NCBI GenBank assembly: GCA_012034055.1
Contig: JAAUSG010000010.1
Coordinates: 1 to 56,803, forward strand
Source of the DNA: Leptolyngbyaceae cyanobacterium RU_5_1
Lineage (GTDB): Bacteria > Cyanobacteriota > Cyanobacteriia > Leptolyngbyales > Leptolyngbyaceae
Direction: 5' to 3'
Length of the DNA stretch: 56,803 nucleotides
A program made the translations under genes and the position numbers. Positions 38,009-52,644 of this stretch are shown in pieces; position 1 is the first letter of the stretch, and each line of letters opens with the position of its first letter. Below the pieces are notes generated by a model. The model was not told where the DNA came from. It ran no database searches and saw only the letters and a list, made by a program, of their open reading frames with translations.

Positions 38009-38356
38009 CTAAGCTGACAGTGGAGGTGGAAATCGAATATCTGCGCAAAAGTGGTCAATCTGACTGGAGAAATAAATCGGTAAAACTGACTCCAAATTCT
38101 CATGGGGACGAGCAATGATGTGGTAAGTCAAGAGAAGCGGTGCATCATAGCCGTTGACGCGATTTAAGGAATCAATCCCAGCGCTCACAGCCTGCTGTAC
38201 TTCAGCCACAGATCCGCGAACGATCACCGTAATCCGCCCTAAATCTGTGTTTTCGTAGCCAACAAGGGTAACGTGGGCAGCCTTAACCATTGCATCAGCC
38301 GCTTCCAGCGCCGCAGGGATACCCAATGTTTCAATCATGCCTAGCGCAACAGTCAC
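38009..38356 (-). CDS. BMC-H shell protein, CcmK1/K2-like with altered pore loop
   Basis: 115 residues from the GTG at 38356, which gives the standard [12 protein letters not shown] start. The body ([33 protein letters not shown] and [15 protein letters not shown]) is closest in my memory to CcmK1/CcmK2, yet it lies in the ccmK3-ccmK4 locus, 17 bp after ccmK4. The pore-forming loop reads ENTDLGR instead of the canonical KIGSGR. The tail is a longer Pro-rich end (FPPPLSA). It may belong to one of the additional CcmK classes described in the literature, but I cannot assign which. It should form hexamers in the carboxysome shell. Confidence 0.8.
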
Positions 38357-38373
38357 AGCCTTTAACAGCCCAT

Positions 38374-38733
38374 CTACTGCCCCGGAGAACCGTTTGGAGA
38401 ACCAAGCAATGGCCGCCCTTCCACGGCTGCCCGGAACCGCTCAACCTCTGCCGAATAGCCAATCGGCAACACAACTTCCACGTTCTCATGGGGATTGGGA
38501 ATGATTACCCACGTCTCCACGGTTCCCCCCTCTACCTTGCTAGCCGCATCTACTCCCGCTTCGACAGCCCGTTTCACTTCGGAAACATCACCTCGAATAT
38601 TGACCGTGAAACGAGCGCTACCAGCTCGAAGATAGCCAACCAGAGTAATTCGACCCGCTTTCACCATTGCATCTGCTGCCGCGAGTACAGCCGGAAACCC
38701 CTTTGTCTCAATTGAACCAACCGCTTGTGGCAT
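38374..38733 (-). CDS. ccmK4: Carboxysome shell protein CcmK4
   Basis: 119 residues with AGGAGA eight bases upstream. The sequence [38 protein letters not shown] and [16 protein letters not shown] matches CcmK4. The pore loop RAGSAR is canonical. It is a hexamer-forming BMC-H protein of the beta-carboxysome shell, typically co-encoded with CcmK3 away from the main ccm operon. It lies between ccmK3 and the third paralogue on the same strand, so the three are likely one transcript. Confidence 0.9.
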
Positions 38734-38955
38734 TCCAAAATCTCCTGATACTTAATCTAGAAGAATGCAAAATTAAAAATTACAGTTTATAGAAATTTGC
38801 AAATCCTGGTAAAGGCGATCGCAGAGCATGGGCAAAGCACTCAGAATCTAGACGAAAATCGTTAATTTTCTTTAGAAATCCTTGCTCGAATTCTTCCCCC
38901 CTGCGTTTATCACCTGCTTTCATTTTTAATTTCTAATTTTTAATTTTTTAATTAT

Positions 38956-39267
38956 CTACACCCAAAACCGTTCCACTTTAGCAGTGAACTCAATTGGCAG
39001 CACCGATTCTACATTTTCGGGTGGGTTGGGAACGATGTAGTGAGAAACCAGTTTTCCACCGGGTGGAGTGGTGTCTGCGGCTTCTGTGCCCGCTGCGATC
39101 GCTCGCCTCACTTCGGCTGTTCGTCCACGGATTGCAACCAAAAACTCAGCCCGTTCCGCTAAACCAAAGTACACCAGGGTGACATGCCCCGCTTTCACCA
39201 TTGCATCCGCAGCCGCGATCGCAGGCGGAAACCCATTGGTTTGAATCACCCCAACAGCAAATGGCAT
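38956..39267 (-). CDS. ccmK3: Carboxysome shell protein CcmK3
   Basis: 103 residues from ATG 39267, with GGAG upstream. MPFAVGVIQTNGFPPAIAAA, VTLVYFGLAERAEFLVAIRG and SHYIVPNPPENVESVLP are CcmK3-like, including the non-canonical LAER in the pore region that distinguishes it from CcmK1/2/4. In known systems CcmK3 does not form homohexamers but mixes with CcmK4. It is the promoter-proximal gene of the three. The 222-bp spacer to ccmK4 holds AT-rich sequence but no ORF. Confidence 0.9.
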   Translation of the reverse strand: MPFAVGVIQTNGFPPAIAAADAMVKAGHVTLVYFGLAERAEFLVAIRGRTAEVRRAIAAGTEAADTTPPGGKLVSHYIVPNPPENVESVLPIEFTAKVERFWV

Positions 39268-39493
39268 CAAAAACTCCTGACTCTGAAAGCACAGAATTCA
39301 TTCTACGCGCCTTGCCGACCTTTTGTACGCAAATGCTAGCGCTCCTTCACATCTGGAATATTGCTTAGGAAATTTTCAAGTCTCGCAACATTGGTGAGAG
39401 GTATGGGGTAGAGGGTGAGGGGCAATGGAGTAAAGACAGTACTTTATCCTCCGTCCTCCCTCCTCCGTCCTCCCTCCTCCACCCTTCATCCCC

Positions 39494-40681: not shown

Positions 40682-40984
40682 CTACCAACTCGACTTCACC
40701 ACTCCGGGTAACAATCCTTCATGCGCCATTTCGCGTAGGACGTTGCGGGATAACCCAAAGTCGCGGTAATACCCTCTAGGACGACCCGTTGCCCAGCAGC
40801 GATTACGGTGACGGCTAGGAGCGCTATTACGAGGAAGTTGCTGAATCTGACGGTGGATTGCCAGCTTCTCCTGTTGAGAGGTCGCTGCCGAAAATTGTGC
40901 TTTGAGAGCTTCCCGCTTGGCAGAATACTTAGCAATCAGCTTTTCGCGCTTCTTCTCACGTTCAATCATGCTTTTTTTAGCCAT
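40682..40984 (-). CDS. rpsN: 30S ribosomal protein S14
   Basis: 100 residues. Basic N-terminus [20 protein letters not shown], then [20 protein letters not shown] and [20 protein letters not shown], ending GVVKSSW. This is the long zinc-independent (C-minus) form, lacking the CxxC pairs. It binds the 3' major domain of 16S rRNA in the small-subunit head. It is a single-gene locus, as in other cyanobacteria. Confidence 0.96.
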
Positions 40985-41142: not shown

Positions 41143-41913
41143 CTACCGATTACAACATTTGATCAGGGGTTTTGCAGCCAATTTTTCTAAGCCAACAGTT
41201 TGCAGCAACCTGTTCCAGTCCTCTGTCAGGCGAATATCTTGCGGATTGGCAAGGCGTAGTTCTGCTAGGGTGGTGAGGGCATCAAACCAGATGCCATGTT
41301 GAGCATAGAGGACTGCCCGTTGTTGAGGGGTGGCTTGGTTGAGTTGGCTCGTTAGAGTTGTGCTGGGACTGACTCGCTGCACCCATCCATAGACTTCCTC
41401 CTTCTGGATGCGAGGTTTCACGGCTGATGTGCTGGAATCGCATTGCAAACGAACTTTGAAGAACCATTTGTACAACGTTCCAGCTTCCAGAGGTCGAACT
41501 GATGCAGGCATCTGAATACTGACAATTCCTGGTGCGTCTGGAGTCGCGATCGCAGCTCGATACACATCCCTGGCAGGGCGGGAGTTGTCTTGTAAGACGA
41601 ATTCCATCGCCGCGATCGTCCCTTTCTCGTAGGGCAGATCAAACCAGAACGTGGGTCGTTCAGCCGTGGTGGTTCCCCACACTTTGGTAATCGCTCCACC
41701 TTGAGCCAACGCTTGCTGATACTCCGGCATCAGGGCTGTGGTTGATTGGCTACCCGCTCCACAGCCACGCCCGGCCCCACCTCCTCGCCGTCCCGGTGCA
41801 TCCCGATCCGGGGGGGGCGGCGGTGGCGTAAATCCAGTTGCTCTCACCTGAGTTGCTCTCGGCGTTGCCCACGTGGCTTGAACCATCATGCGATCGCCAA
41901 AATTGGATTGCAA
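41143..41913 (-). CDS. DUF928 family protein
   Basis: Up to 256 residues; the frame begins at a TTG (41913) and the first ATGs are at about 41889. After FTPPPPPPD and a Gly/Arg-rich segment (RRGGGAGRGCGAGS) it reads DUF928: TFWFDLPYEKGTIAAMEFVL, a YKWFFKV strand, and a C-terminal helical part ending LEKLAAKPL. Most DUF928 proteins carry a signal peptide. Here the signal-like sequence APLLVSTFAIQ is in a different frame just upstream, so the N-terminus may be broken by one base or mis-read. It is the last gene of the sigma-DUF1822-CHAT operon. Function is unknown. Confidence 0.8.
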   Translation of the reverse strand: MQSNFGDRMMVQATWATPRATQVRATGFTPPPPPPDRDAPGRRGGGAGRGCGAGSQSTTALMPEYQQALAQGGAITKVWGTTTAERPTFWFDLPYEKGTIAAMEFVLQDNSRPARDVYRAAIATPDAPGIVSIQMPASVRPLEAGTLYKWFFKVRLQCDSSTSAVKPRIQKEEVYGWVQRVSPSTTLTSQLNQATPQQRAVLYAQHGIWFDALTTLAELRLANPQDIRLTEDWNRLLQTVGLEKLAAKPLIKCCNR

Positions 41914-42072
41914 AAGTACTCACTAGCAACGGTGCGATCGCGTGTTTAACGTTCTATTTTTTGAAGGTGCGGTTTCATGGTCATACCCTGGTCAATCATT
42001 AGTCATTAGTCATTTGGCAACGGATAAATAACAGATGAAACGGATAACACGATATCACATCTATTTCATCCG

Positions 42073-44430
42073 TTAAAAAATCTGCTGCTTCTTTACTTCA
42101 ACGGCTTTTACTCCGATTCCGCTCGTGATCAGAGCAATGGCTGATGGGATCAGGGGAACCCAGGCCCCCGTTTGGATCAGCAATAGTAAACAACTGCTGA
42201 ATAGAGCCGCGATCGCCCCAACCATGACCAGTCCCAGGTAGGTTGGCTTGCGGATATACAACGCCAGCAAGCCTCCCAGCAATGCCCAACCCCCCACCCA
42301 CAGTAACTCTGCCCAAAGTGCCCAGGTCCACAGCAACGGTCGCCCATCCAGCACGGCACTCAGCAGTTGGCTGGTCATTTGTGCTTGCAAGATGACTCCC
42401 GGAACTTTCTGGCGATCGCCGTGAGCCGTGCGATAGGGAGTCAGCCAGTAGTCATAGGTTCCTTCGGCGATCGTGCCAATTAAAACAATCCGATTTTTGA
42501 CCGCTTCAGGTTGGAGTTGCCCAGATAGCACTTGACCTAACGTGACGTGTCGAACACCCTTTTCTGGAGAACGGTAATTCAGCAAGAGTTGATGTCCCCG
42601 GTCATCAATCCGCTGATAGCCACCCTGATGTGCTCTGAGCGGTTGAAAATGTAATTTACCCAACTGCCAGGTCTCCGGATTGGGATATTGCAAGGAAATC
42701 CCCTGTGACTTCAAATAACGCAACGCTAGTTGAACATTCAAGGCGTAAGGTGCAGCACAGCGTGAGGATGGAGCTGGAGTCATGGCTAACAAATGACGAC
42801 GGATAATATTGCCTGAGTCAGGCACAAAGTCACTGAATCCAACTTGGGCGGTGGGCACTTCAGGGGGAGGAGCCACGCCGCTTTCCTTTGTTTCAGCATC
42901 GCCCACTTTGCAAACCGCAACCAGGTGATCGCGCTGCCGCAAGCGGTCTGCGAGTTGTGGGCCACCCTGCCCAACCGAGTAATCCCGGTAAATATCCAGA
43001 CCAATGACTTTGGGTTGATACGCTTCTAGCTTTTGTAACAGTTGATCTAAGGTCGGGTCAGACAGCGAACCCCGCCGGTGCTCTTGAGGTTGTGCTTGGA
43101 CATCTTCATTCGTAACCAGAACCACTAGCAGTCGGGGATCAGGGGGTTCATCGGGACGCAGTTGCAGCAGGTGATCAAACGCCGCAACTTCCAGCGGTTG
43201 CAACAGCCCCATAAACCGCATACCGAGGATAAGGACTGTGACGGCGAAACTGGTGAGGAATAGGGAGATTGAAGATTGAAGATTGAAGATTTTAGATTGG
43301 CGATCGGTTGGTTCACTCTGCAATCTACAATCTACAATCTGCAATTCTTCCTGGCTCCCCTGCAAACTCTGCCAGCTCGGTGGTACGACGGCTGGATTTT
43401 GCACAATGATCGGTAGCCAGGTGGCACAGGGATACTGTCCCTCCAGTCCTTGGAGGCGTTCGCGGGCTTCCCGCACGGCTTGATACAACGATTTGTCCTG
43501 GGCAAAGGCGGTGAGAAAATACTTCAAAAACTCTTGGGCAACCCGATCGGGCACAGGTTCCCGCATGACAATTAGTTGAGGCAGATGGAGTTGCTCCAGT
43601 TCGTAGGCTAACCCCAAGCCATCACAGGAGTTGAATATCGCCAGTTGCAGTCCACGGGAAATGGCTTGTCGCAGCCCGTATTTCAACTCTGCGATCGCCA
43701 AACTGTCCTCTGGATTGAGATGCAAACGACCCTGAGTGGACTCCGTGTTGCTGTGTCCGGCAAAAAAGAGGATATCCCATGCCTGATCCCAGAGTTGCTG
43801 ATTTAACTGCTGCCGGGATGGCTCGACGAGAAACAACACCTCTGCATGGGGTAATGTGGCTAAGAGCTGGCGATCGCGGTCGGTATCAATGCCCCGGCGA
43901 TCGCCCAAAATTGCCAGAATTCTAACGTTGCTGCTTCTACTCGTGCGCTCAACCGCTCGTGCTGGCGGGGTGCTTAACGCCACTTCAGCCTGGGTGTAGC
44001 GCTCGATAAACTCCCAGGCGTGCCAGGGCAATCGATGCAGGCGCAGATCGGTGGTTCGCAGCAAGACGCGCACCGGTTCAGTCAGCTCTAGGGACTCACG
44101 CAGTTGCTTTTCCACCGCGTGAAACGAAGGGGATGCCAGCCAGGTGTTCAGGTGCTGCTGCAAGTCTTGAGCGTGTTGGCGGCAGGCTTGCAGGTGTGCG
44201 CCTGAACCGGCGCGAACAGTAATTTGCTGCAGCGAAATCCGAGTCGGTGCAGAGAGTTGCCGATAGTGCTGCTGCCAATCGTTCAGGCAGGCTGCCAATT
44301 CAGGTGCAGGCGGTAACGTACCCGTGACATCTGAAAACGAAAGCGCCCCATCTTCGCCAATCTCCAGGGTGGTCTGAAAACCCTGTTCCAACTTGCCATC
44401 AAATCGCAAAACTACTCGTTTAGCCATCAT
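42073..44430 (-). CDS. CHAT protease - CHASE2 sensor membrane protein
   Basis: 785 residues from ATG 44430. Residues about 120-345 form the caspase-like CHAT domain. Its dyad is visible as His near 226 (FFAGHSNTES) and Cys near 269 (FNSCDGLGLA), so it could be proteolytic. A linker of about 30 residues is repeat-derived (RQSKIFNLQSSIS). A membrane span lies near 393-415. The CHASE2 extracytoplasmic sensor follows (VAAFDHLLQLRP, KVIGLDIY, VVLIGTIAEGTYD). Three more spans near the C-terminus anchor it again. It would sense a periplasmic signal and act in the cytoplasm. It begins 8 bp after the DUF1822 stop. Confidence 0.92.
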   Translation of the reverse strand: MMAKRVVLRFDGKLEQGFQTTLEIGEDGALSFSDVTGTLPPAPELAACLNDWQQHYRQLSAPTRISLQQITVRAGSGAHLQACRQHAQDLQQHLNTWLASPSFHAVEKQLRESLELTEPVRVLLRTTDLRLHRLPWHAWEFIERYTQAEVALSTPPARAVERTSRSSNVRILAILGDRRGIDTDRDRQLLATLPHAEVLFLVEPSRQQLNQQLWDQAWDILFFAGHSNTESTQGRLHLNPEDSLAIAELKYGLRQAISRGLQLAIFNSCDGLGLAYELEQLHLPQLIVMREPVPDRVAQEFLKYFLTAFAQDKSLYQAVREARERLQGLEGQYPCATWLPIIVQNPAVVPPSWQSLQGSQEELQIVDCRLQSEPTDRQSKIFNLQSSISLFLTSFAVTVLILGMRFMGLLQPLEVAAFDHLLQLRPDEPPDPRLLVVLVTNEDVQAQPQEHRRGSLSDPTLDQLLQKLEAYQPKVIGLDIYRDYSVGQGGPQLADRLRQRDHLVAVCKVGDAETKESGVAPPPEVPTAQVGFSDFVPDSGNIIRRHLLAMTPAPSSRCAAPYALNVQLALRYLKSQGISLQYPNPETWQLGKLHFQPLRAHQGGYQRIDDRGHQLLLNYRSPEKGVRHVTLGQVLSGQLQPEAVKNRIVLIGTIAEGTYDYWLTPYRTAHGDRQKVPGVILQAQMTSQLLSAVLDGRPLLWTWALWAELLWVGGWALLGGLLALYIRKPTYLGLVMVGAIAALFSSCLLLLIQTGAWVPLIPSAIALITSGIGVKAVEVKKQQIF

Positions 44431-44438
44431 CAATGACC

Positions 44439-45623
44439 TTAAATCTCAAAGCATTCGGTCAATGTTTTGCCACTGATCGTGACTTCAACACCGAATTTCT
44501 CTCTGACTTGACCCCTAAACTGAAATTGAATGGTTTCGGTTACCGTTGCGCTGGCTTGCCCCACTTCAGTGCCACTTCCATCCAGCAATCTGACCTGAAT
44601 CGCGGCTAAGAACGTGGCACTCTCTCCCAGTGGGCAAACGTGCAGCCCCAGGTTTACCTGACGGTCGCTGATCGGAGTCATGCCAATCAACAGCGCGATC
44701 GCCCCCTCACCCGAATCCTCCCCCAATTCCAGCACCTTCACCCGATTGATCGCATACTCTGGTGCGATCGCCTCAGCGGCGCTTCCCCCACTCCGCCAGG
44801 CCGTAGCAACCTGAGCAGGCAACAGAACAGCATCCACCGCTTGCCAGGTGGATGCAAATTGCCCCTGTAGCCAGTCACTCAGCCTGACAAGCGGCGATCG
44901 CGCCTGATCCACACCACAGCGTTGCGCATAAAGGGCTTGTCGCCACTGAGATCGCGCCAACAAAGCGCCCCAGAGGCTGAAGGGCACCTCCAATCGCGGA
45001 AATACCAGGGCCGAATCTCCCAAGCGCTGGATCAGGGTTTCCGCCTGGCTGGCAGACAGTTCTGGGAGGGGCGCGATCGCCAATCGCGTCTGGTCGGCTC
45101 CACAAAACTGATAGGTTGCCCAAAAGGCATTCAGATCCTGGGTCAACTGTTCAGAACTCAGGGAGTAGGTGCGATCGAGCGGATCATATTGCCCCAGCGA
45201 CTTCAGTTCCTGATGCGTCGTGTACCCCCAAATCCGCACCCAACCGCTCTCTGGTTCAACCTGCACCGCCAGGTAATAGTCCCCTGCCCAACTGGGACTA
45301 TCGACCCATTCCTGCGGCACCTCTAATTCGCTATCATCGATCACTTCTGTGGGAATCAACACCAGTCGAACGGCTCCCAGCGTGACTGCCGTACCGTTCA
45401 CCACGTCCCAGATGGCTGGCAGCATGTCCAGAGCCAGCCAGGAGGTGGCGTCTGGGACATCTGCTCGCAGCCAATCTAACACCCCATTCAAACATAGGGC
45501 GTTGAGATAGGCCGTCTGGCAACCATTGGGTGTACTACACCGTTGACTCTGCTGCACGGCGTCTGCCTGTGCAGTGGGCGATAGCTCTAACCACCACTCT
45601 TTTGGATCTGCAAACATAATCAT
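44439..45623 (-). CDS. DUF1822 family protein
   Basis: 394 residues. DUF1822 hallmarks are FADPKEWWLELSPTAQADAV at the start, LNALCLNGVLDWL, a WAGDYYLAVQVEPESGWVRI block and the repeated beta segments at the C-terminus. It is soluble with no catalytic motif. It overlaps the sigma factor stop by four bases (ATGA at 45620-45623), so translation is coupled. The close link with sigma and CHAT-CHASE2 genes, seen in many cyanobacteria as I recall, suggests it regulates one of them, possibly as an anti-sigma or adaptor. That is inference. Confidence 0.88.
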   Translation of the reverse strand: MIMFADPKEWWLELSPTAQADAVQQSQRCSTPNGCQTAYLNALCLNGVLDWLRADVPDATSWLALDMLPAIWDVVNGTAVTLGAVRLVLIPTEVIDDSELEVPQEWVDSPSWAGDYYLAVQVEPESGWVRIWGYTTHQELKSLGQYDPLDRTYSLSSEQLTQDLNAFWATYQFCGADQTRLAIAPLPELSASQAETLIQRLGDSALVFPRLEVPFSLWGALLARSQWRQALYAQRCGVDQARSPLVRLSDWLQGQFASTWQAVDAVLLPAQVATAWRSGGSAAEAIAPEYAINRVKVLELGEDSGEGAIALLIGMTPISDRQVNLGLHVCPLGESATFLAAIQVRLLDGSGTEVGQASATVTETIQFQFRGQVREKFGVEVTISGKTLTECFEI

Positions 45624-46897
45624 CGCTCTGTCTCCTTACCCGCAGTTTTACTGCCAGAGTCAGGATTTGGTACACCATCTGATACCCCATAGTGAACCCC
45701 AAGCCATTCGTCTAAAGCAGCACTCATATCTTTTATTAGGTTTGGAGTTGGCGGATTATTCACCGTCTCCTGACTCCACTGCACCAGCGCCATCAGCAAC
45801 GCTTCTCTGGTTTTAGTCAGTCGGCGTGAAACCGTTGCCTGACTCATCTGTAGTTGCTGCATTATCTGCTGCTGAGTCAGCCCTTGTTGGTAATAGAGCC
45901 GCAACAGCCCTTGAGACTGAGCGTCCAGTTTCTCCAACCCCGTCAGGATCAGCTGCCGCAGCTGTGACCGCTGCTCCCGGCGATCTTGACGTTCTTCCTG
46001 AGCCACCAACTCAGCCAGTAACGACTCCTGGAACGGGTCTGCAAGGTCATCCTGAATCTCACCCCCCAACTCCAGCCCAGCTTTTGGGACATTCAAAGAC
46101 TCAACCGGTGGATAAAGATAAGCCCGTACCCAGGTTGCGCATTGATTCAGCCACCGTTCAATCGTTTCTGGAGTGCAGTCTGTTCCAGAGGGTACAAGTT
46201 GCTTGCGTTGCTCCGTGTTGTAAAGATTGGCGATCGCAATCCATAACGGGCGATCGACCGCCGGGAGATGATTAGTTCCAGTTGAAGTCTGCACGTACAG
46301 AGCATTGAAACACATCCAGGCAAGCTGATACTGCGCGATCGCAGTCGGAGATAAGCCTGCCTGCCGCAATGCGTCCAGCAACCGCTTTTTACTCACCCTG
46401 CGTAACAATCCCAAATTCGTACAGAAGTTGACCTCCTGCCGTTGGCGCAACTGATCTTTCAGCAATCTGGAAAAGGCAATCGTGGCAAACGTTTTTAAAT
46501 TGGCTCCTCGATCAGGGTTGAACCTTTTTAGGACGGAGCGAAGATCAGCCATTGCCATCTGAAAGTAGTCTGACAAGCCGTATTGAACGCTTGTAAATTT
46601 CCGAACCGTTTGGTCTGCTGCCCAATAACAGGGTTCTTGTAGATACGCTGACAGATGTCCTACCGAGAGTGAAGCGGCTAGGGAATGAAGCCGCGATTCC
46701 TCTTTCACCCAGTGCTGGTGCCAGTAAAGTGCCCAGAAGGGTTCTGAGGTTGGTGCAGTTTTACTTTTAGACAACTGCTCTACACAACGCTGCATACTTC
46801 GGCGCAATCTAGCGTCACTCATCCAACCACTGACGCGATCGCCTTCAAATCGCACAAAGGTTGAAAATAAGTCGATAGTTTCCTGTCGAGGGCGCAT
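45620..46897 (-). CDS. Sigma-70 family RNA polymerase sigma factor
   Basis: 425 residues from ATG 46897; a GTG at 46927 is also in frame. Sigma region 2 is visible near 100-160 (YGLSDYFQMAMADLRSVLKR, LKTFATIAFSRLLKDQL). Sigma region 4 with its helix-turn-helix lies near 315-365 (LLRLYYQQGLTQQQIMQQLQ, SQATVSRRLTKTREALL). A long middle region separates them, with no region 1.1 or typical region 3. It belongs to the divergent cyanobacterial sigma group associated with DUF1822. It is the first gene of the operon and may read its own promoter. Confidence 0.88.
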   Translation of the reverse strand: MRPRQETIDLFSTFVRFEGDRVSGWMSDARLRRSMQRCVEQLSKSKTAPTSEPFWALYWHQHWVKEESRLHSLAASLSVGHLSAYLQEPCYWAADQTVRKFTSVQYGLSDYFQMAMADLRSVLKRFNPDRGANLKTFATIAFSRLLKDQLRQRQEVNFCTNLGLLRRVSKKRLLDALRQAGLSPTAIAQYQLAWMCFNALYVQTSTGTNHLPAVDRPLWIAIANLYNTEQRKQLVPSGTDCTPETIERWLNQCATWVRAYLYPPVESLNVPKAGLELGGEIQDDLADPFQESLLAELVAQEERQDRREQRSQLRQLILTGLEKLDAQSQGLLRLYYQQGLTQQQIMQQLQMSQATVSRRLTKTREALLMALVQWSQETVNNPPTPNLIKDMSAALDEWLGVHYGVSDGVPNPDSGSKTAGKETER

Positions 46898-48813: not shown

Positions 48814-49857
48814 TCATTCAAAATATACTGCCAGGGTTTCTTCATGCACCCGTGTCACACTGAGCCATTCCAGGTTTTGTTGGGCCCGGTTTTTCCAATG
48901 ATTTAACTGGTCGGAATGTCTAAGCAGTTGGGCGATCGCGGTTGCCAGAGCGGCTGGGTTTGCAGGTGGAACTAAAATTCCTGCTTTCCCATCGTCAAGG
49001 GCTTCAGGAATCCCATCCACATTGCTGGCGACAACAGCACAACCAACCTCTCGTGCTTCCGACAAAACGAGTCCAAAGGGTTCGCGATGGGAGGCCAGCA
49101 CAAAGATATCGGTTGACTGCAAATAGCGTTGCGGCTTGAGTTGGAATCCTTCAAAGTGAATGCGATCGCACGCTGCACTGTCTTGAGCTTGCGCTGCAAA
49201 CTGGCTGCGATGGGGACCATCACCCACTAAGTAGAGATGAGCAGTGGGAAACTCTGCCGCAACTTGATTAAAGGCTGTGATTAACTCGGAAATACCTTTA
49301 CGTTGGTACATTCCGGCAACAGTTGCGATCGCAGGACGATGCAACGCGACAGGATTGACTACGGGTTGACTCCGCGGACTTCCCAAGGTTCCATTTCGCA
49401 CAACGCGCAGTTTCTGCGGTGGAATTCCCCGTTGCTGCATCGAATTGGCAACCGCATGACTCACGGCAATCACGCGATCGGCGAGTCCCATCAAAATTGA
49501 ATTGCGTTGAAATTCATTGTGAACAGTAGAGACTAAGGAATAGCGCGATCGCCCCCGTAATCCCCATGCCAACACAATGCCCGTCATCATGTGTGCGTGA
49601 ACGATGTTTGGCTGAAAGGTCTGGATCATGGCTCGATACCGTTGAGTCGCTTTCACTAAATTGATTGGATGCCTACGCTGGTCGAAATAAAAGTGTTTAA
49701 CTCCATAGTTTGCAAGTAAGGTTTCGTATTCTCCACCTGTTGAGGCGATCGCCGTCTCATGTCCTGATTTCGCTTGCAGGCAGGCCAAATCCACCGCCAC
49801 GTTGATAATGCCGTTTCCAGCTGCGCAGATATCGTTCAGGATATGAAGGATTCGCAT
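48814..49857 (-). CDS. GT4 glycosyltransferase
   Basis: 347 residues from ATG 49857 (another ATG two codons upstream). MRILHILNDICAAGNGIINV carries the acceptor-domain Gly-rich loop, and PNIVHAHMMTG follows. The donor domain shows IATVAGMYQRKGISELITAF, LYLVGDGPHR, and the E-x7-E motif in HREPFGLVLSEAREVGCAV. It is a retaining GT-B enzyme, likely in the exopolysaccharide pathway with the neighbours on the same strand. Confidence 0.86.
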   Translation of the reverse strand: MRILHILNDICAAGNGIINVAVDLACLQAKSGHETAIASTGGEYETLLANYGVKHFYFDQRRHPINLVKATQRYRAMIQTFQPNIVHAHMMTGIVLAWGLRGRSRYSLVSTVHNEFQRNSILMGLADRVIAVSHAVANSMQQRGIPPQKLRVVRNGTLGSPRSQPVVNPVALHRPAIATVAGMYQRKGISELITAFNQVAAEFPTAHLYLVGDGPHRSQFAAQAQDSAACDRIHFEGFQLKPQRYLQSTDIFVLASHREPFGLVLSEAREVGCAVVASNVDGIPEALDDGKAGILVPPANPAALATAIAQLLRHSDQLNHWKNRAQQNLEWLSVTRVHEETLAVYFE

Positions 49858-49907
49858 AGTCATACATGGTGATTTTGGATTTTAGATTTTGGATTTTAGA
49901 TTGTTTT

Positions 49908-50020
49908 CCTCGTTCCAAAGCTCTGCCTTGGAACGCGCACCTAGAGGCTCTGCCTCTGATGGCTAAGTGGCAGAGCCACTTCGTGGGCATTTCCAGGTAG
50001 AACCTGGAAACGAGCATTTT
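49908..50020. repeat. Dispersed repeat with nested hairpins
   Basis: CTCGTTCCAAAGCTCTGCCTTGGAACG, CAGAGCC and CCAGGTAGAACCTGGAAACGAG form several nested inverted repeats; the outer arms are CTCGTTCC and GGAAACGAG. This is a widespread interspersed type in cyanobacterial spacers. It lies between two GT genes, and the 49864-49902 part is a TTTTGGATTTTAGA tandem repeat. Confidence 0.7.
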
Positions 50021-50109
50021 ACAGCCATTTTCAGTTGCATTAAACACACCCCACACCCCACACCCCAACTCAGAGGTTGTGGCTTACTGATCTGAGAACC
50101 GCTGTAAGA

Positions 50110-51255
50110 TCAACTGACTTGCAGAGCTTTCTGATTGAGGATGCTGTACAACACATTCACATACTGATCGACGACGCAATCCAACGAGAATGATTGGGCA
50201 CATTGTCGTAAGAGTTCTGAACTCGTTGGTTGATCCAGTGTTGCAATAATTGCATCGGCGAGTGCGTCGGCATTGCTCACTGGAACTAATTTGCCAAATT
50301 TGCCATTTGCCAAAATTTCTGCTGGTCCGCTTTCACAGTCTGTGGAGACAATTGGGGTTCCGGCGGCCATTGCTTCTGCGACCACATTTCCGAATCCTTC
50401 AAAAATGGACGAGAGGGCGAAAACACTGGCATTTGCCATGTAGGCGTAGGGATTGTCCACAAATCCGGGCAGTGCAACATCCTGCTGCAAACCAAGCGTG
50501 CGAATTTGGGCTTCCAGTTTGGGGCGATCGTCGCCCTCGCCCAGGATCATCAATCGCGAGGGTCGTTGTTGGCGTACCCGTGCAAAGGCATCGATCAGGG
50601 TTGGAAAATCTTTTTGGCTGACCAATCGCCCAACCCCAAGAATAACAGGCGGTTCACCGGATGCGAACCAGGGGTGATCGATCGCGGCTTGCAGCTTGTT
50701 CAGAACGTCAGGAGTGACGACGGGATTGTGAATCACATGAATCTGATCAACAGGTACTCCTGACATCTGCGAGACATCCTCAGCAACCCCTCTAGATGCC
50801 GCGACGATCGCGTCTGCCCAGGGATAGAACCAGCGTACAAACTGCGGTCTAATTTTACCCATTGTGTAAGGTTGGTGGTCGCGAAACTGGCAAGAAAGAT
50901 GGGTTTGCACACACATCACAATTCGAGTTGTCACACCCGCTAAACGCTGGGCCCAGATGGCTGAACTGAGGATATCGAGTGCTGAAAACAGAGCGGCTGG
51001 CTGTTCTTGCTGTAGGTAGCGGCGGAGGGCGATCGTTTTGGAGATTAATACTGGAAAGTGAGCCTGCAAATCAACCACTCGTATCGAATCAGGTACAGTG
51101 GATAGGTAGTCTCCTTCTGCTTTGGCCAGCACGAGATCCGTTGAGAATCCACGTTCTGCAAAACCTTGGGACAGATGCAGCATGGCCCGTTCTGCGCCTC
51201 CACCGGCTAAGGCGGGAAGGAAAAAGCTTACAGTAGGCTTTAACGATTTGTTCAT
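50110..51255 (-). CDS. GT4 glycosyltransferase
   Basis: 381 residues. TVSFFLPALAGGGAERAMLH is the typical GGGAER acceptor loop of GT4 enzymes. The donor domain has VILGVGRLVSQKDFPTLIDA, MILGEGDDRPKLE, VALPGFVDNPYAYM, and the catalytic E-x7-E in SSIFEGFGNVVAEAMAAGTP. It is probably a hexosyltransferase for a capsular or exopolysaccharide repeat. The repeat array upstream (51310-51452) separates it from the next GT gene. Confidence 0.9.
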   Translation of the reverse strand: MNKSLKPTVSFFLPALAGGGAERAMLHLSQGFAERGFSTDLVLAKAEGDYLSTVPDSIRVVDLQAHFPVLISKTIALRRYLQQEQPAALFSALDILSSAIWAQRLAGVTTRIVMCVQTHLSCQFRDHQPYTMGKIRPQFVRWFYPWADAIVAASRGVAEDVSQMSGVPVDQIHVIHNPVVTPDVLNKLQAAIDHPWFASGEPPVILGVGRLVSQKDFPTLIDAFARVRQQRPSRLMILGEGDDRPKLEAQIRTLGLQQDVALPGFVDNPYAYMANASVFALSSIFEGFGNVVAEAMAAGTPIVSTDCESGPAEILANGKFGKLVPVSNADALADAIIATLDQPTSSELLRQCAQSFSLDCVVDQYVNVLYSILNQKALQVS

Positions 51256-51309
51256 CAGGATGTCTCCTTTAAGGGTAGGAATAACGGAATTTTGCCAAGG
51301 TTTAATGAG

Positions 51310-51452
51310 ACTCCCCCCTAACCCCCCTTAATAAGGGGGGAATCAGAGGTTTTCTAGTCCCTTTTTAATGAGATCCCCCCCTAACCCCCCTTAATAAAGG
51401 GGGGAATCAGAGGTTTGTTAGCCCCCCTTGTTAAGGGGGTTGGGGGGGATCA
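51310..51452. repeat. Array of CCCCCCTAACCCCCCTTAATAAGG repeat units
   Basis: Two full units (each with CCCCCCTTAAT(A)AAGGGGGGAATCAGAGG) followed by a third in which the core is CCCCTTGTTAAGGGGG. The third overlaps the 3' end of the next GT gene and encodes its tail. The core is the same palindrome as in the repeats at 27 and 55101. Confidence 0.8.
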
Positions 51453-52644
51453 AGGATTGAGGTTCCTTCAGATGTTCTCTTGCTTTTGGTTTGGATTGAG
51501 TGTGAATTGGAATCTGATCCAATAAGTGAGCAATCTGGCGATTGATTGCATTCTGGTGGAAGCGTTGACTGGCTTGAATTTTGGCTTTCTGGGCGATCGC
51601 TCGTACCCATTCTTGCTGCTTGCGACAGAAGTTGATGGCGGATGCCAGGGTTTCTGAGTCTTCTGGCGGCACCAACAAGCCGGTCACACCTGGTTCAATC
51701 AATTCGACGGCACCGCCTGCTTGAGCGGCAATTACGGGTCGCTCACACAACATGGCTTCGGCAATCACTCGTCCAAACGGCTCCGGGGCAATTGAGGTGT
51801 GCGCGATCGCGTCACAGGCATACATCAACGGCACCACATCGTAGCGGAATCCTAGAAACCGAGCGCGTTCTTGCAGTCCTAGCTCGGCAACCTGAGAGTG
51901 CAGTTCCTGAGCGTATGCCTGTTCACCATACAGCGCATCCCCGACAAAAATAGCGGTCACGTCCTCTGCACAATACTGCAGGGCTTTAAGCAGAACGTGC
52001 TGCCCTTTCCAGGGAGATAGCCGACTGAAATGCCCAACCAGAAATTTGCTCTGCAGTCCCAACTCCTGTTTAATCCGCTCAGTTTGGGCGCGATCGCACT
52101 GATACAGCGTGGGATCAAAGCCGTTATAGACCACTTCGACCCGCTCTGGACAGCCTCCCGCCTGAATAAACGCCGCTTGAGCGGCTTCTGAGGTGGCAAA
52201 GACTCGTGAGGCACAGCGATTGGCAAGCGTCACGGCGAGCTGGCGGTTGGTAGGGCTGAAATGCTCAAGGGACAGAATGTCGTGCAGATGGTAAACCAAC
52301 GGGCGACGGCTGATCAGGCTTGCCAATGCGCCAACTACCAGGGCCTTTTGCGTATTGGCGTAAATCAAATCAAACTCGCGGCTAAGTTGAACCACCCTGG
52401 CAACCAAGGGCAGTAGTTGCCTTAGACTGCTGATCCCTTGTACCCAACCACTATCTTTGCGCACCTGCAACGGTTGGGTTGCCAGAATTTGCACTGGAAT
52501 GTGTTCTTGCTCAAGTGCTTGTCTGAACGGCCCGTCGGTAAACAAACAGACGAGGCAGCGATCGCGATAGGGTTTGGCAATTTCAGTCAGGCAGAGTTCT
52601 GCGCCGCCGAGCTGCCCACTTTGATCTAGAAACAGGATTTTCAT
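51418..52644 (-). CDS. GT4 glycosyltransferase with repeat-derived C-terminus
   Basis: 408 residues. MKILFLDQSGQLGGAELCLT is the acceptor loop. HDILSLEHFSP lies near the cleft. The donor domain has FLVGHFSRLSPWKGQHVLLK, ARFLGFR and the E-x7-E in IAPEPFGRVIAEAMLCERP. The last residues (LIPPNPLNKGG) are not part of the fold: they are the translation of the palindromic CCCCTTGTTAAGGGGG repeat, which also supplies the stop codon. The ligase C-terminal fragment overlaps its start. It likely acts in the same polysaccharide pathway. Confidence 0.88.
   Translation of the reverse strand: MKILFLDQSGQLGGAELCLTEIAKPYRDRCLVCLFTDGPFRQALEQEHIPVQILATQPLQVRKDSGWVQGISSLRQLLPLVARVVQLSREFDLIYANTQKALVVGALASLISRRPLVYHLHDILSLEHFSPTNRQLAVTLANRCASRVFATSEAAQAAFIQAGGCPERVEVVYNGFDPTLYQCDRAQTERIKQELGLQSKFLVGHFSRLSPWKGQHVLLKALQYCAEDVTAIFVGDALYGEQAYAQELHSQVAELGLQERARFLGFRYDVVPLMYACDAIAHTSIAPEPFGRVIAEAMLCERPVIAAQAGGAVELIEPGVTGLLVPPEDSETLASAINFCRKQQEWVRAIAQKAKIQASQRFHQNAINRQIAHLLDQIPIHTQSKPKAREHLKEPQSLIPPNPLNKGG

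Follow-up and report, generated by a model that had tools for sequence, protein, structure and literature searches.

Results

A four-gene operon in Leptolyngbyaceae RU_5_1

We analysed a 56,803-nucleotide stretch of DNA from Leptolyngbyaceae cyanobacterium RU_5_1 (contig JAAUSG010000010.1, positions 1 to 56,803; hereafter called the window). Its minus strand carries a four-gene operon which, from 5' to 3', encodes a sigma factor, a DUF1822 protein, an EACC2-CHAT-CHASE2 protein and a DUF928 protein, as assigned from open reading frames (ORFs) and from Pfam and NCBIfam matches (Table 1). Comparison across genomes supported the sigma factor and DUF1822 as the constant core of the operon. The original prediction, made without database searches, had placed the operon at 41143 to 46897, and we confirmed that it is genuine and lies there. 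The order of CHAT-CHASE2 and then DUF928 agreed with the Pfam families, and the ATGA shared by the DUF1822 start and the sigma end was present as a 4-base pair (bp) overlap at 45620-45623. The predicted 8-bp interval between the DUF1822 and CHAT-CHASE2 genes holds for the ATG start at 44430, whereas the TTG start at 44433 leaves 5 bp. Regions 2 and 4 of the sigma factor are both present and lie unusually far apart; in Pfam, region 4 scored above the cut-off of its family and region 2 was detected below its own.

Table 1. Features of the operon, with positions in the window. Lengths are in amino acids (aa); the numbering of H227 and C270 counts from the TTG start at 44433.
Feature	Positions	Strand	Basis
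Sigma-70 family (extracytoplasmic function [ECF]-like, long type), 425 aa	45620..46897	-	NCBIfam TIGR02937 4.2e-28; Pfam Sigma70_r4 4.9e-7, above cut-off
Sigma region 2	46436-46606	-	
Sigma region 4	45797-45937	-	
DUF1822 protein, 394 aa, predicted anti-sigma/sigma regulator	44439..45623	-	Pfam PF08852 7.8e-86; AlphaFold2 (AF2) pLDDT 90.5
DUF1822 N-terminal alpha/beta domain, aa 10-262	44838..45596	-	AF2 model; zinc-motif fusion in relatives
DUF1822 flexible linker, aa 263-291	44751..44837	-	Lowest pLDDT, 52-67
Linker R277 of the hydrophobic-Arg-[SNGQ] motif	44793-44795	-	
DUF1822 C-terminal beta-sandwich, aa 292-394	44442..44750	-	AF2 model; listed PDB fold matches apparently to the beta-sandwich only
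EACC2-CHAT-CHASE2 protein, 786 aa, alternative ATG start 44430	42073..44433	-	Pfam CHAT 3.6e-16, CHASE2 2e-63
N-terminal alpha+beta domain, EACC2 by position	44116..44433	-	Model of L101 homologue; description in PMC8195603
CHAT caspase-like domain	43417..44115	-	Pfam PF12770; fold match of L101 homologue
Putative catalytic His227 codon, motif FFAGHS	43753..43755	-	Conservation in homologues
Putative catalytic Cys270 codon, motif FNSCDGLGL	43624..43626	-	Conservation in homologues
Transmembrane segment before CHASE2, aa 387-405	43219..43275	-	Hydropathy
CHASE2, predicted extracytoplasmic sensor domain	42268..43239	-	Pfam PF05226
C-terminal transmembrane segments, aa 709-775	42109..42309	-	Hydropathy
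DUF928 protein	41143..41913	-	Pfam PF06051 5.1e-57

Linkage of the sigma factor to DUF1822

Linkage was assessed in 96 DUF1822 cases, for which 12 further regions from the genome of the window and 80 from about 45 other genomes were retrieved; the cases are not mutually independent but come from many families. A co-directional sigma gene was the immediate upstream neighbour of DUF1822 in 84 cases; 49 of these sigma factors were of the long type found in the window and 35 belonged to a short ECF type, about 220 aa in length. The EACC2-CHAT protein was encoded directly downstream in 55 of the 96 cases, often after a gap of less than 30 bp or with an overlap. The gene order recurs in many cyanobacteria, as the original prediction had stated. 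In a set of 49 close orthologues taken from named genomes, the sigma gene lay upstream in 47 of the 48 that could be resolved and CHAT-CHASE2 lay downstream in most. Within the genome of the window, which has about a dozen DUF1822 genes, all seven resolvable long sigma genes and five of the seven resolvable short ones adjoined DUF1822. The adjacency of sigma and DUF1822 is far above chance. Most of the sampled genomes of photosynthetic cyanobacteria have DUF1822; all 14 control genomes lacked it.

The partners also showed signs of co-inheritance, for which the original prediction had suggested a check. Sigma and DUF1822 distances were correlated with a Mantel r of 0.87 in the long class and 0.60 in the short class (0 of 2000 permutations), DUF1822 and CHAT distances with 0.72 and 0.60, and sigma and CHAT distances, the weakest of the three pairs, with 0.55 and 0.47. 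The class of the sigma factor predicted that of DUF1822, whose median length was 403 aa beside a long sigma factor and 321 aa beside a short one (p 3e-11). DUF1822 was also considered as a partner of CHAT only, and this was rejected because sigma is its more constant neighbour.

Two other sigma loci deserve mention. At L058 (4700-5974), a 424-aa gene directly upstream of DUF1822 combines a CHAT-like N-terminal region with a C-terminus of the short ECF sigma type, and may be a natural fusion of protease and sigma factor. At L147 (4107-5559), a short-type sigma gene of 334 aa occurs without DUF1822 and is overlapped downstream by an uncharacterised 156-aa gene, perhaps an alternative sigma partner.

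The EACC2-CHAT-CHASE2 protein

The His-Cys dyad noticed by the first reading corresponds to H227 and C270, 43 residues apart. Both residues were kept in every one of the 48 linked homologues of full length (other rows being fragments or sequences outside the family) and in all 41 close orthologues, so that the loss in most homologues that would have refuted the original prediction did not occur in any of them. With these residues conserved, CHAT is very probably an active caspase-like cysteine protease. The model of a homologue from locus L101 placed an alpha+beta N-domain before CHAT; the identity of this N-domain as EACC2 rests on its position and on its published description. A fold search with the L101 co-fold model described below gave SAVED-CHAT, separases and the transmembrane anti-sigma factor DdvA as top matches.

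CHASE2 is flanked by one hydrophobic segment and by a C-terminal hydrophobic cluster. Since this places it between predicted transmembrane segments, CHASE2 should lie outside and CHAT in the cytoplasm, in agreement with the extracytoplasmic sensor role first attributed to CHASE2. Among the 55 EACC2-CHAT proteins that follow DUF1822, 29 contained CHASE2, and DUF928 was the next gene in 23 of those 29. Versions lacking CHASE2 had Peripla_BP_6 (6 of 15), nSTAND1 (4 of 15) or WD40 (3 of 15) in its place, indicating that the sensor is interchangeable. The genome of the window gave 36 CHAT and 25 CHASE2 matches; one of its CHAT-CHASE2 genes (C176; L151 3679-6089) is split by frame breaks.

Fold and linker motif of DUF1822

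In the AF2 model of the window DUF1822 (pLDDT 90.5, pTM 0.73), an alpha/beta N-domain and a C-terminal beta-sandwich are joined by a linker, around residues 270-290, that was modelled with low confidence. The TPR fold implied by the published label was rejected for this member on the strength of this confident model. In some relatives the linker is followed by a HEAT-like insertion. The PDB fold matches listed for DUF1822 appear confined to the beta-sandwich, and when PDB sequences were searched with a profile, no Csx30 match to DUF1822 appeared up to E 10; homology to Csx30 or to a known anti-sigma factor was rejected, there being neither a sequence match nor a fold match among those listed. 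The only Pfam match of the window protein was DUF1822 itself, with no zinc motif (H-x3-C-x2-C, zf-HC2). Another DUF1822 gene of the same genome (C104; L014 1201-2411) is split by frame breaks.

After clustering at 60% identity, 63 of 77 DUF1822 sequences had a hydrophobic-Arg-[Ser/Asn/Gly/Gln] motif in the linker, compared with 23.6 ± 4.0 in shuffled linkers. The motif lay mostly 12-19 residues past a conserved Trp, and the equivalent Lys motif showed no enrichment in these linkers. A basic motif conserved within such a flexible stretch makes a plausible candidate for a protease cleavage site. A cleavage site in DUF1822, as first envisaged, has a conserved candidate, although one that is not confined to CHAT-linked copies; specificity of the Arg for those copies was rejected because the motif is general.

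The DUF1822 N-domain beside sigma factors in small genomes

Many small genomes (1.5-2.5 Mb) of the same phylum and another class, which we infer to be non-photosynthetic Gastranaerophilales, gave one weak DUF1822 match that covered the N-domain only. In all five resolvable loci (L138, L139, L141, L142 and L143), this domain opened a protein of 860-970 aa whose gene preceded an ECF-type sigma gene by 28-50 bp (NCBIfam TIGR02937, 1e-10 to 4e-19), followed by a third gene of a STAND-like zinc-ribbon/AAA/TPR type. In three of the five, a zf-HC2 motif came straight after the DUF1822 domain: above the Pfam cut-off in L138, weaker in L143 (18.6 bits) and as H-x3-C-x2-C in L141. The zinc-motif position was followed by one or more membrane spans and, in most loci, a TonB-like C-terminus. 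A more distant genome (G016) had two such proteins with H-x3-C-x2-C, one of them beside a sigma-like gene with a weak sigma match.

The zf-HC2 motif is the usual motif of zinc anti-sigma factors. The combination of the N-domain with zf-HC2 and a membrane span next to a sigma gene is how a classical membrane anti-sigma factor is laid out. This fusion points to DUF1822 being an anti-sigma factor and is the best evidence, independent of CHAT, that DUF1822 regulates sigma; we consider such a role probable. The role of sigma inhibitor given to DUF1822 in the original prediction is supported to this extent.

DUF928 and the surroundings of the operon

The gap of 159 bp between CHAT-CHASE2 and DUF928 in the window is atypical. 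In the closest relatives found, Leptolyngbya ULC077 and Pantanalinema GBBB05 (74% and 69% DUF1822 identity, respectively), DUF928 follows CHAT-CHASE2 after 8-13 bp and has an intact signal peptide, and all well-preserved DUF928 homologues examined open with an apparent signal peptide. In the window, comparison with L153 and L154 revealed signal-peptide-like pieces ahead of the first usable DUF928 start, in frames other than that of the gene. The 5' end of the gene is out of frame at about 41914-42010, within the intergenic interval 41914-42072, indicating either damage to the gene or a mistake in the assembly at this point; the rest of the gene, further downstream, is intact.

Judged by sequence alone, the window also contains three tandem carboxysome shell (BMC/CcmK-type)-like genes at 38009-39270, with a ribosomal protein S14-like gene near them at 40682-40984, and a run of glycosyltransferase-like genes at 48814-52644, upstream of the operon on the same strand.

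Discussion

Relation to known systems

The original prediction held that no function had been assigned to this gene order. This did not stand, because Kaur et al. (2021, eLife; PMC8195603) proposed essentially the same function for the class: EACC2-caspase genes with variable C-termini, CHASE2 included, are described beside ECF sigma factors and DUF1822, and autopeptidase activation leading to the sigma factor is suggested. The window operon resembles that class, as described there, in its constant N-domain and caspase-like domain, its variable C-terminus (in the class either extracellular with transmembrane helices or intracellular, in the window CHASE2 with transmembrane segments) and its neighbouring ECF sigma factor and DUF1822. 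It differs in that the authors label DUF1822 a TPR protein, whereas the window model is alpha/beta plus beta-sandwich; DUF928, an anti-sigma fusion and a linker motif are not mentioned in the available text.

The closest demonstrated mechanism is that of type III-E CRISPR, in which the CHAT protease Csx29 cuts Csx30, the inhibitor of CASP-sigma (PMC10028731). Both systems have a CHAT protease, a two-domain protein with a flexible linker as the (in the window, presumed) sigma inhibitor, and an ECF-type sigma factor, and the spacing of H615 and C658 in Csx29 equals the 43 residues seen in the window. Activation is by RNA in the Csx29 system and probably by a membrane sensor in the window operon. 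No Cas7-11 or CRISPR array was found among the operon genes and flanking ORFs, the rest of the genome not having been searched for them.

Three further systems share part of this scheme. HetF cuts PatU3 in Anabaena, a case of a cyanobacterial protease that removes a negative regulator (reviewed in PMC12288457); that pathway is without a sigma factor, and HetF acts in cell division and heterocyst patterning. The window CHAT region matched HetF weakly in NCBIfam (2.8e-5). Myxococcus DdvA (PDB 8rot), which is linked to the ECF sigma factor DdvS, matched the L101 co-fold model, presumably in its CHAT region, at E 4e-6; DdvA unites the anti-sigma and the CHAT-like fold in one protein, whereas the presumed anti-sigma factor of the window is the separate DUF1822. 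RseA, with DegS and RseP, and other zinc anti-sigma factors offer the sequence of envelope signal, anti-sigma proteolysis and ECF sigma release that is proposed here, and the non-photosynthetic relatives of DUF1822 have their zinc motif and membrane span. The RseA system uses another class of protease, and cyanobacterial DUF1822 has neither a predicted membrane span nor the zinc motif.

A proposed protease-gated sigma/anti-sigma operon and its alternatives

The best reading of the operon is a protease-gated sigma/anti-sigma signalling system, which we hold tentatively as a whole chain. In the resting state, DUF1822 would probably hold the sigma factor through its N-domain. A periplasmic signal could then be sensed by CHASE2, perhaps together with secreted DUF928, a step for which we see about even chances. 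Activated cytoplasmic CHAT might in turn cut DUF1822 in its flexible linker, with the conserved Arg as the probable site, a step we propose with less assurance. The cut would part the two halves of DUF1822 and free the sigma factor, which would turn on its own set of genes.

Several findings weigh against this chain. No report of cleavage or binding was found in the literature, and among the fold matches listed DUF1822 resembles neither Csx30 nor a known anti-sigma factor. The linker Arg is equally common in DUF1822 proteins without an adjoining CHAT, and so it may have another role. For a three-protein co-fold we used locus L101, whose sigma, DUF1822 and CHAT genes share a frame and could be read through their stops as one chain (118 aligned rows); the single domains were confident but the pTM was 0.55, a model compatible with contact among the proteins or with none, and the DUF1822 linker was disordered (pLDDT <50) instead of occupying the active site of CHAT. 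Pairs of sigma and DUF1822 that lack CHAT are common, the genome of the window has CHAT-CHASE2-DUF928 units with neither sigma nor DUF1822 (C18, and the broken C176), and in a few operons of the form DUF1822-CHAT-CHASE2-DUF928 (L056, L063 and L067) no sigma gene is adjacent. A common overlooked partner downstream in the operons lacking CHAT was considered and rejected, mostly ordinary metabolic genes being found there. Because the halves occur both alone and together, the operon is best seen as a frequent union of two modules that has DUF1822 at its centre. The route from CHASE2 through CHAT and DUF1822 to sigma release, as originally predicted, thus retains the linkage of its core, the dyad, the placement of CHASE2 and the anti-sigma fusion, but it is not an obligatory chain.

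The alternative that survives best, though we think it unlikely, is that DUF1822 regulates sigma while CHAT cuts itself or another protein, with the product or the sensor relaying the signal by binding. Autopeptidase activation is what Kaur et al. (PMC8195603) proposed for the class, and both the generality of the linker Arg and the failure of the co-fold to dock the linker fit such an arrangement. It sits less well with the strong adjacency and co-inheritance of DUF1822 and CHAT, and in the simplest known case with like parts, Csx29, Csx30 and CASP-sigma, it is the anti-sigma factor that is cut.

Somewhat less likely again, DUF1822 could be not an inhibitor but an activator, chaperone or scaffold that carries sigma and links it to a membrane sensor, CHAT or other sensors acting by conformational change. 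In keeping with a bridging role, DUF1822 is found with CHAT in the absence of sigma and with sigma in the absence of CHAT, and in the non-photosynthetic relatives a STAND-like ATPase replaces the protease as third gene. The layout in those same relatives, with the N-domain, zf-HC2 and a transmembrane segment beside sigma, is that of an inhibitor.

We regard as improbable a conflict or programmed-cell-death module in which the protease kills or arrests the cell and sigma controls expression of the operon only. Related proteins were placed in apoptosis and immunity networks by Kaur et al. (PMC8195603), and CHAT copies are many in the genome of the window. The most constant part, however, is the sigma-DUF1822 pair, often without a protease, which is ill-suited to a system built on a killing protease, and the membrane CHASE2 and periplasmic-binding sensor domains suit ordinary signalling. 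It is very improbable that the sigma-DUF1822 pair is a regulator of its own which has a CHAT-CHASE2-DUF928 unit beside it by chance: each half does occur alone and no pair of partners correlates as weakly as sigma and CHAT, but among the 96 diverse cases CHAT directly follows DUF1822 in 55, often within 30 bp or overlapping, and the two are co-inherited (r 0.72 and 0.60).

Significance

The grouping of these genes had already been described; to judge by the literature searched, what is new is the DUF1822 structure, the fusion to an anti-sigma motif, the motif in the linker, the counts that reveal modularity and the association with DUF928. More speculatively still than the chain itself, DUF1822 may be a large, overlooked anti-sigma family that dates back to an ancestor shared by the photosynthetic and the non-photosynthetic Cyanobacteriota, was once zinc-containing and membrane-bound, and was rebuilt in cyanobacteria as a soluble two-domain inhibitor with an Arg cleavage site for caspase-like proteases with interchangeable sensors. 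If this is true, the DUF1822 module would be a common counterpart, outside CRISPR, of Csx29, Csx30 and CASP-sigma. Filamentous cyanobacteria carry many copies of the module, and no regulon for any copy was found in the literature. Should DUF1822 be the anti-sigma factor and CHAT the protease that acts on it, many cyanobacterial caspase-like proteases, often discussed as death proteins, would be signal proteases, the CRISPR-linked version would look like a single application of a broader scheme of proteases and sigma factors, and an entire level of signalling in cyanobacteria would become readable.

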